A DNA stretch of 64,000 bases from positions 558,001 to 622,000 of the forward strand of contig JAVTLE010000016.1 in assembly GCA_033439295.1 (NCBI GenBank), read 5' to 3'. This stretch comes from Deuterostichococcus epilithicus. Lineage: Eukaryota; Chlorophyta; Trebouxiophyceae; Prasiolales; Stichococcaceae. Each line of letters begins with the position of its first letter. Position 1 is the stretch's first letter. The notes under the pieces are model-generated. The model had not been told where the DNA came from. It made no database searches and saw only the letters and a program-made list of their open reading frames with translations. Positions 452 to 19,653 of this stretch are shown one piece after another. The translations under genes were made by a program, and so were the position numbers.

Positions 452-3400
452 ACCGAGGCCTCGGAGGCCGGCTGGGCGTGGCGGGGCCCGGAGATGGGCG
501 CGGCGCGGCGGCTGCTGCGCTGCATGGCGGTGCACTGCCTGCGCTGTGTCCCCGGGGGCACCTCCTGCCTGCGGCGCCTGGCGTGCGCCGCACGAGCGGC
601 CTCCGCCCGCGGCGTGCTGAACGGGTGCGCGCTTCGAGTGACCTGCTCAGATGTCGCAGATTCCCTCAGTCCCCCGCGGAAGTGCGACCTTCACTGCGAT
701 GCATGCTGACCTTCGCACGAGGCCCGAAGATCAGCATGTTGAGCTCAGGCTCAACATCATCATGGCCCCTTGTATAATCCAGTGGCTCTGTCTGCGGGTG
801 CACGCATCAAAGTGCGTTTCCTTCTCATGTCGCAGGGGCCTGCCATGCCGCAGGCTGGCAAGCTTGGCAAACCCAATTGCAGAGGTCGTGGAGGCGCCTC
901 TTGGTACATGGGCAGGCAGGTCCAGTTTCTTGGTCGGGTCACGTCAATAGCTTTAATTTGTGGCGGAGTGGAGGGGAAAGGCAGGTGTAAAGCGGTGTCT
1001 GCTCCCCGTAGGTGGGCGCTCATGCACGAGGTGGTGGCGGACGTTGTGGAGGAGCTGCTGGGCGCGGCGGGCGCCGGCGGCGCCNNCGCCGGGCCGGCGG
1101 CTGCGGCTGCTGCGTCGCCAATGTCGGAGGGCGCGGCCGCAGCAGACGCGTGGCTGCTGGTGTCGGAGCTGGGGGCGCAGCCCTACCGTGACAACTCCGC
1201 CGGTGCGCCGCCATTGCTGATCGTGTCCGTGGGACGTGTGTCTGCCTCTGTAGGCTGCAGCGCTTTGAGCCCAATGTGCCTGTTCAGTTCTTTGGGCTCA
1301 ATGTCATGAGCGCAGTCGTGTCACAACAACGTCGGTGCGCTAATCAACAGCGCCACGAACTGCGTCCTGGCGCTCTTTGCATTGCCCAAAGGTCGACATA
1401 CCCAATTACCACTTGACCCTCGAATGAAGAGGTCGGAAGGACTTAAAATTGCTCTGCGGCTGCCTGTGGCAAGGCTGACCGTGGCACAGGAGCTGTCGAT
1501 ATCGGGCCAAGCCTCTGAGCCTTGTTCATCAGCACGATGTTGTGCCGCTGGTGCAGACCTCCTCAAGGTGATCGACGAGCTGACGGCGGGCACGCTCATC
1601 GAGCCGCCCGGGGCAGCCCTTGCGCCGGATGCTGCCGCCGGCGCTTGGGCCGCCGGCGCCGCTGACGCGCAGCAGCAGCAGCAGCAGCAGCAGGCCTTCC
1701 GCCGCGCGAGCGCTGATGACGCCGCGGCCGCCGCCGCCGAGGACGGCAGCAAGATCCATCTGCCGGGCGAGGTGTGGGCGGTGCTCGGGGTGTGGAGCGT
1801 CGACCCCAGGGAGCCGTCGCCGCGCGCCCAGCTGCTGCTGCCAGGTCAGGGGTTTAGTAAAGCTTCAACCCAAACTTGTCAGGGAGTCGAGGAAAGGGGT
1901 TTAGTGTTTGCTGCCGCAAGGGAACCTGCCGCAGCTGCGTCCAAGTGCCGACAAGGCGCCGGCGTGGGCAGGGTCACTGCCTGGTTGACCTGCCGAAACT
2001 CGGACGTGCACGACCTGTTTGAACATGGACTTGCGTGCACCGCGACCCCTACAGCGCCCTGGTCTGCGACAGCGCCTGGGGTGGCAATTGACACTGCTGA
2101 CGAAGACTGCCCCTCCGTGCTTCAGGCTGCTGGCGGCTGTACGGCGGCGCGTGGCAGTTCATGGCGGTGGTGCAGCGTGCAGTGGAGGGCCTCGCAAGCC
2201 TCAGCCCCCCGGCGACGCCGCGGGCTGCCCGGCCGCCCGAAGCCGCCCCCACCCCGAGCAGTGAGCGACCATGTTTTCTGTACGGGGGATTGAGGCACCG
2301 CTGCGGTCGTTGCACACGTTCTTGCATCCGCGTCATGTTCCTGACAGCATATCAACGCGCATGACACTCCAGGTGGCTGAGGTGTTGTGGGAAATGATTT
2401 GTATCTTGTGTGCGCATGCTGCACACCCGTGCCCAATGGGGCGCCTCCAGCTCCAGGAGGAGCTGGGGGATCAAATGCCCTCGCTGGTGTTGTCCCATTC
2501 GGACTCCGGCTTGCAGCTACCCATGATGTGATGTTATTCGGAGCTGCATGCGGCAGCGTCACCGCACGGGTCCTGGAGGCGCTGTATCCGATAGCAGTGG
2601 GAAGTCGATGTGCTTGGGCACTGGACGCGGCAACTGCAGGCGACTGATGTGTGATGCAGATGCAGGCCGATGCGCATCATGTGCAACGTGCGACATACGG
2701 GTGTTTGTGATGGGTGGCATTTGTATGCGGCCATCTGCAAAGCGCCTGGTTCAGCACTACAACATCAATTTTTGAATCGATGGCAACGACAACGTGCAAT
2801 CTGCAGGCCTGATGCGGGTACTGGAGGCGCTGGACGCGGCGGTGGCGCCGCCGTCGCCGGAGGAGACCGCTGCCTCGGCGCGCTCGGCGGCGGCAGGCAG
2901 GGCGGATGCGGATCGGCCGCTGCGCCTCGCCTTCCGCCTCCTGCTGCTGTACCTGCAGGTGATCCTTCTTTTCCTGCTTTCTCTTCTGCAAAGAGAAGAA
3001 TACGCCCGAGAGTCTCGGGAAGTCTCTGAGCTCCCATGAGCACTTCACCGCCTTCTGCTCCCTGCTCTGCAGTGCGTGCAGGTATCGGGCACCAAGGGGG
3101 TTTCCAGGGTTTTAGAGGGTTTGGCCAAGCTGGTGACACACCGCAAGAGCTAGGGCGTCGTCTTCTCACAGCTGCCGTGAACCAGCGGCGCTCGAGTCGG
3201 CAGGGCAAACCGTGACACCTCGCACCTGCATTTGCCAGATGGTGTTTGCATGACAGGTATGCTGAGTCTGCCCTGCTGAAGCCAACGACAGGTGGTTGTT
3301 GCAGCTGCTGGCCAGCAGCAGTCGCAGTTCACAAGGCCGCCAAAGTGAGCATCAGCGATCGTCGACGCAGTACTGGCTGCTGTGCCCCGCAGCACGCGCC

Positions 3401-19653: not shown

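Follow-up and report, generated by a model that had tools for sequence, protein, structure and literature searches.

Decayed copies of adjacent exon edges in the introns of a BEACH gene and other genes of the green alga Deuterostichococcus epilithicus

Introduction

Short duplications have been linked to introns in several systems. In a potato RdRp gene, tandem duplication crossing an intron–exon boundary was described, and one event made a new intron with RNA sequencing (RNA-seq) support (PMC4974935). In the AGGT tandem genomic duplication model, an exonic AGGT is duplicated and the resulting intron is as long as the unit (PMC3443670), and for Drosophila near-intron pairs a tandem exon duplication with intronization of one copy has been proposed (PMC2891723). 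Mouse and human cells also form small tandem duplications where DNA breaks carry complementary 3′ overhangs, and duplications of this kind are described as the most frequent short insertions (<100 bp) of the human genome (PMC8355091). Here we examine the introns of a predicted BEACH gene (positions 452–19653, plus strand) in a 64-kb stretch of the D. epilithicus genome (C14:558001–622000, hereafter the window), many of which contain imperfect copies of the exon edges that adjoin them.

These copies resemble the potato case in that the duplicated segment would cross an intron–exon boundary and inherit splice signals; one new intron was made there (PMC4974935), whereas here detected copies lie in 35/450 introns and a new intron is not demonstrated. 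With the AGGT model they would share a short tandem duplication whose effect is masked by splicing, but our copies lie within longer introns (PMC3443670). As in the Drosophila pairs, exonic sequence would have been duplicated and one copy intronized, the difference being that the footprint of the duplication is visible in the present alga (PMC2891723). Overhang-type duplication is one established way in which short direct duplications arise, but the available part of that report names no link to splice sites and concerns mammalian cells, and the pathway is putative in the alga (PMC8355091). Among the papers listed in our literature search, which covered few subscription papers, we found no survey of exon-edge copies within existing introns.

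Results

The exon-edge copies are real and statistically strong. We compared up to 60 nucleotides (nt) of each exon edge with its own intron, using 999 length-matched foreign introns as the null; 440 of 450 modelled introns entered this test, the remainder falling under the length limits. In the BEACH gene, 15/31 introns match an adjacent exon edge (p ≤ 0.005), and dinucleotide shuffles of the own intron as the null again gave 15/31, in agreement with a first-pass annotation that had read such copies by eye in about 15 of 29 visible introns. At p ≤ 0.002, matches were to the head of the next exon in 10/31 cases and to the tail of the previous exon in 5/31. Scored against pieces of other BEACH-gene introns, the own intron ranked top for 11/26 heads and 5/26 tails. 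Local alignment of exon edges with own, other and shuffled introns, the check that the first-pass annotation had proposed, thus finds own introns to match better than the controls. Across all sampled introns, own direct targets were matched in 23/411 and 19/408 comparisons (p ≤ 0.002), while far exon edges stayed at or near chance level (0/222 and 1/217). Reverse-complement targets gave 2/411 and 1/408 (3/819 in all, vs 42/819 direct) and reversed targets were also at or near chance; the copies are direct only.

These counts come from 234 kb of one genome (46.8 Mb, 21 contigs): the window, a further 150 kb spread over three other contigs, and 20 kb at the loci of two further BEACH genes. Genes were predicted from sequence alone with a gene finder written for this analysis and self-trained on the sequence, which converged on sharp splice signals (about CAG/GTGCG and TGCAG/G, the slash marking the splice site). 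At first the gene finder took several intronic copies for exons, and 14 modelled exons were barred over three rounds to reach the 450 introns. Exons were selected for barring with the help of the repeat hits; the effect had been found in a test that preceded this step (13/33 and 7/32 edges at p ≤ 0.05). The BEACH-gene model has 32 exons, a modelled 5′ start and a neurobeachin/LRBA-like architecture (PH, BEACH, WD40). Its predicted protein of 1559 letters matches PH_BEACH, NBCH_WD40 and Beach (profile 1–276 of 276, E 3e-118). Because the 32-exon model yields these domains, with Beach in full, support for the modelled exon edges is good in the conserved half and weaker upstream of it. The intronic copies form no part of this domain-complete predicted protein.

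Extending the alignment beyond the BEACH gene, which the first-pass annotation had envisaged genome-wide and which we carried through the 234-kb sample, showed that other genes share the effect, although among the 24 genes with at least 5 tested introns this one has the highest density of copies. Outside it, 27/409 introns hold a copy at p ≤ 0.005, where about 1% would be expected by chance from two edges. Copy-bearing introns number 15/31 in the BEACH gene, 7/26 in C1 gene 2 and 7/35 in C5 gene 3, with 13/340 in the remaining 21 genes together, and heterogeneity of this degree was reached in 0/5000 permutations. At the other two BEACH-gene loci the counts are 0/20 and 1/25. Exon-edge copies are therefore present at a low level elsewhere in the sampled genome and very dense in the BEACH gene. 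Copy-bearing introns tend to be the longer ones: the 42 at p ≤ 0.005 have a median of 413 nt, the 366 introns at p > 0.05 one of 232 nt. Gene-level GC content at third codon positions and median intron length do not explain copy richness (Spearman −0.04 and 0.03; 24 genes).

We then described the copies lying nearest to their exon edges, which were found for 39 edges (23 at 3′ and 16 at 5′ splice sites). Their exon part measures 19–93 nt, usually with a few intron bases added, and lies at a spacing of 60–205 nt (82–138 nt in 32/39, 100–125 nt in 23/39). Between copy and exon is a spacer with a median of 58 nt; it is at least 36 nt long in 36/39, which fits a need to keep the splice signals intact. 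The splice motif is often kept (24/39; AG in 15/23 and GT in 9/16 by manual reading of the alignments), which bears out the proposal of copies within existing introns that often carry it. Template use falls off with distance into the exon: among 40-nt windows at p ≤ 0.005 (3′ then 5′ sites), exon bases 0–40 matched in 20/273 and 19/272, bases 40–80 in 6/224 and 8/224, and bases 80–120 in 1/161 and 0/157. Intron bases adjoining the site matched in 3/298 and 3/298, and five intron windows per side gave 3 to 9 of 271–298 (1–3%), vs 0.5% by chance. Local direct repeats with a score of at least 20 occur at 0.50 per offset at 60–150 nt vs 0.014 at 5–9 kb, an excess of about 36-fold that is present in the window, C1, C3 and C5, most weakly in C3; the fullest 10-nt bin among all repeat offsets is 110–119 (16 repeats). 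Full tandem units are found at the tails of exon 4124–4229, C3 exon 20768 and C5 exon 26492. Spacing modulo 3 is distributed 9/15/15 over the 39 exon–intron pairs.

The first-pass annotation had invoked the AGGT tandem-duplication route to new introns. By that route spacing should equal intron length, and it is shorter in 49/49 pairs (for example, 119 nt in a 222-nt intron). Its view that the process recurs holds up: 10 introns have at least 2 copies, vs 2.4 expected (Poisson, 450 introns), with gene clustering making up part of the excess, and identity in the exon part of the 39 nearest copies is graded from 63% to 93%. In introns 7802–8393 and C1 26860–27721, copy–copy identity (64% and 72%) is close to the product of the copy–exon values (83 × 77 and 89 × 81), as if each copy had left the exon independently. 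In C1 30725–31138, two copies are 78% alike, above either's identity to the exon (73% and 75%), a different relation.

The copies have decayed as noncoding sequence. Identity is 0.82/0.79/0.74 by codon position and 24/27 gaps are not multiples of three (49 pairs, taken from the gene model preceding the last re-run), and since the former is nearly flat and the latter break the frame, coding constraint on the copies was rejected. Mutually exclusive or duplicated exons, which call for an intact frame in the copy, are rejected on the same gaps. The idea that the process is still at work at these splice sites went further than the data: among nearest copies, 0/39 reach 95% exon identity and 2/39 lie at 90–95%, so that current activity is not demonstrated. 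It may be that no event is recent, or that new, perfect copies disappear again, through deletion between the repeats or because an intact competing splice site does harm. The phrase that introns may be ‘largely fossil exon edges’ likewise exceeds the evidence, as detected copies make up 1007/14525 intron nt (7%) in the BEACH gene and 2918/149424 (2%) overall, a lower bound given that very worn copies escape detection.

Within the BEACH gene, copies of exon heads (all plus strand) begin with 2546–2584 (exon 2807–2958; p = 0.0025), 4006–4033 (intron CAG and the head of exon 4124–4229; spacing 115, 86% identity) and 5417–5478 (3′ splice site and the head of exon 5547–5675; spacing 119). Exon 8394–8535 has two, at 8167–8225 (spacing 220, 83%) and, with 18 nt of intron, at 8265–8338 (spacing 111, 77%). 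Further copies are at 9225–9260 (pyrimidine tract, AG and the head of exon 9446–9602; spacing 205, 75% identity), 10458–10505 (exon 10559–10670; spacing 113) and 12230–12286 (exon 12338–12473; spacing 121). Exon 13500–13639 is represented by a series: 13198–13275 (spacing 299, 73%), 13329–13422 (GCAG and about 90 nt of the exon; spacing 167, 80%) and a shorter copy at 13089–13139, which is 77% identical to copy 13352–13403 and, over 35 nt, 77% identical to the exon. The remaining heads are at 15612–15655 (CAG and exon 15710–15889; spacing 95, 77%), 16355–16428 (GCGCAG and exon 16534–16650; spacing 173, 77%), 17314–17352 (GCTGCAG and exon 17435–17538; spacing 114, 79%) and 18783–18858 (25 nt of intron and exon 18937–19071; spacing 129, 68%).

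Copies of exon tails on the same strand are at 4279–4301 (exon 4124–4229 and its donor; spacing 68, 91% identity), where the intron flank is repeated too and forms a tandem unit (flank p = 0.003), at 14269–14323 (exon 14099–14207 and GTG) and at 15173–15225 (exon 14959–15119 and GTG). The tail of exon 15710–15889 was copied at 15945–15989, ending 24 nt short of the donor (spacing 124, 82%), and a second time at 16065–16126 (71%). A short stretch at 9722–9757 is like the edges of both exon 10137–10179 (the next exon, p = 0.0005) and exon 9446–9602 (the previous one, p = 0.007). In the minus-strand gene model, copies are at 27457–27492 (tail of exon 27594–27760; 78% identity) and 31892–31942 (head of exon 31671–31823; 76%).

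Of the 17 intervals offered as examples in the first-pass annotation, 13 match the adjacent exon at p ≤ 0.005 and four do not. The interval 5931–6054 reached p = 0.039 and 4286–4378 p = 0.17; 9224–9290 gave p = 0.09 on exon letters alone, its longer match taking in the pyrimidine tract; and 5290–5350 does not lie within one modelled intron, as a doubtful mini-exon is modelled at 5295–5324.

Several other features were observed. The trained gene finder called decayed copies at 8283–8302, 13201–13263 and 13333–13392 as exons. Long imperfect inverted repeats lie within BEACH-gene introns at 5729–5812, 11547–11687 and 12665–12721; a genome search treating the first as a candidate mobile element found no further copy of it. 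An introner or transposon origin, which would place one sequence in numerous unrelated introns, was rejected for the two copy regions searched (13329–13422 and 8167–8340), for which the sole other genome match found was the neighbouring exon. Direct repeats between exon sequences also occur, for example in the C5 block (L019–L023 joined; block positions 48004–48236 and 49206–49363), and 13 of the 17 in the whole sample start at an offset that is a multiple of three; proteins, too, may be lengthened by this duplication process. Elsewhere in the window, a two-copy 68-nt tandem repeat (25000–25148; 85–88% identical) lies within a modelled intron, and about 35 CAG units (39820–39923) lie mainly within a modelled exon. 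Single N letters are scattered in very GC-rich stretches (1085–1086, 18117–18142, 20526); they look like failed base calls, and those at 1085–1086 and 18117–18142 are inside modelled exons. The minus-strand modelled ‘gene’ at 20023–60961 is probably several genes, and light-harvesting genes are present (39 exon matches to PF00504).

Discussion

The best explanation of the copies, to which we assign a probability of roughly 0.6, is that short direct tandem duplications spanned a splice site and that the spare copy was discarded by splicing. A short direct duplication would arise locally across the site and leave two sites, of which splicing would use the outer, real one, restoring the old mRNA and removing the duplicate with the intron. 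Because the old mRNA is restored, the duplication would be tolerated and the event could persist, with the noncoding duplicate decaying through substitutions and frame-breaking insertions and deletions (indels). Since the exon is conserved and the intron is not, the exon side of the event would remain legible longer than the intron side. Certain introns and genes would undergo the duplication step repeatedly, and we infer that DNA breaks or replication give rise to it. Duplication followed by splicing would account for the direction of the copies, their adjacency, their loss of frame and the limit on their distance, and direct copies are present at 39 edges, with AG or GT still visible in 24 of them, as would be expected of tandem duplication across an intron–exon boundary. 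A tandem simulation with a 40-nt limit, in which the unit lengths were our choice, gave h/d > 0.65 in 1–8% (vs 1/39 observed), and so also yields a low exon share of the unit. The underlying process is probably small duplication of a familiar type, filtered by splicing and here recurring unusually often.

Several observations weigh against this explanation. An intron extension of at least 10 nt is present in 11/39 copies and the flank test reaches p ≤ 0.05 in 7/38, either intron-side signal being found in 15/39 (11/23 at 3′ and 4/16 at 5′ sites), whereas identity-matched tandem simulations predict 45–86% for extension and 40–80% for flank, values that hinge on the chosen rates. Flank identity at 5′ splice sites falls to background past 6 nt, and the signal left at 3′ sites is weak (0.43 over 7–12 nt and about 0.3 further on, against a background of about 0.25), which places it close to the high-indel simulations. 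Younger copies do not show intron-side homology significantly more often (4/7 at ≥85% identity, 11/32 below). Young repeats with non-homologous spacers occur, such as C5 29422–29466/29532–29576 (96%, 45 nt, spacing 110), and in one C1 intron a younger copy lies beyond an older one (89% vs 81% identity, at spacings of 250 and 105), an order not given by a simple nearest-tandem model. Homology mostly ends at the splice site, more sharply than in most tandem simulations, and the explanation accounts neither for this nor for the clustering of spacings at 100–125 nt. The objection from weak flanks is softened by an unmatched simulation, which reaches the observed flank level, though it needs high divergence combined with 0.3 indels per substitution to do so (2–42% of events detected). 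The weak flanks that remain could each reflect faster turnover of the intron flank, selection against a decoy site, or copying bounded by the exon.

This last option, in which an exon edge and a few intron bases are copied into the intron about 60 nt away, through a splice- or RNA-linked route or through templated repair primed at CAG/GTG, is unlikely in our estimation; we keep it in view because the causes of the weak intron flank are not separable here. Identity at 3′ sites drops from 0.83 over intron bases 1–3 to 0.45 at 4–6, 0.43 at 7–12 and 0.29 at 13–20, with 0.74 over the first ten exon bases for comparison, and the preferred spacing and the 110–119 offset bin also speak for it. An exon-only simulation fits gaps and length (0.51, 63 nt, vs 0.46 and 59 nt observed), but one tandem setting fits equally well (0.46, 65 nt), and exon-only simulations give an intron extension of at least 10 nt in 6–11%, below the 11/39 observed. 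Copying from spliced mRNA was rejected, as the copies do not continue into the neighbouring exon (1/38 at p ≤ 0.05), and the absence of this junction signal counts against bounded copying as well. We know of no pathway for it, which also lowers its standing. Somewhat less credible still is a splice-site-bounded process in which exon edges and no more than the splice core were copied, in direct orientation, into the neighbouring intron at a preferred pitch near 113 nt, repeatedly and in selected genes. If true, introns in this lineage would draw material from their own exons via an undescribed splicing- or transcription-linked DNA mechanism.

We consider it improbable that some copies are functional, as alternative or poison mini-exons or as selected decoy splice sites. 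Many keep their AG or GT, and the 14 exons called on copies over three rounds, some of them mutually overlapping, would suit such a role, but AG retention is close to neutral decay at 78% identity (0.61 by our own arithmetic), and the flat codon-position identity, the frame-breaking gaps and the lack of any copy in the domain-complete protein all argue otherwise. Local templated insertion at breaks, of the polymerase-theta type with random template and orientation, fares slightly worse and seems very doubtful. It would suit the young repeats with non-homologous spacers; random templated insertion is expected in both orientations, however, and reverse-complement copies are at chance, exon interiors past 80 nt hardly serve as template, and intron–intron pairs are few (15, about 6 of them not copies of copies, vs 39 exon edges). 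Chance similarity has almost no probability, for although the window's GC content of about 62% and the proneness of by-eye reading to false matches would favour it, the foreign-intron, shuffle, reversed, reverse-complement and far-edge controls rule it out for the bulk of cases.

For annotation, these copies carry a warning: decayed exon edges retain splice motifs and gene finders may call them exons, a risk for automatic annotation in this genome. For biology, the origin of intron sequence is mostly unanswerable because introns decay. With recognisable copies in half of one gene's introns, one input to introns becomes measurable, and at splice sites the size, position, orientation and recurrence of duplications can be measured. 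The introns of the BEACH gene probably hold a partial record of their own growth.
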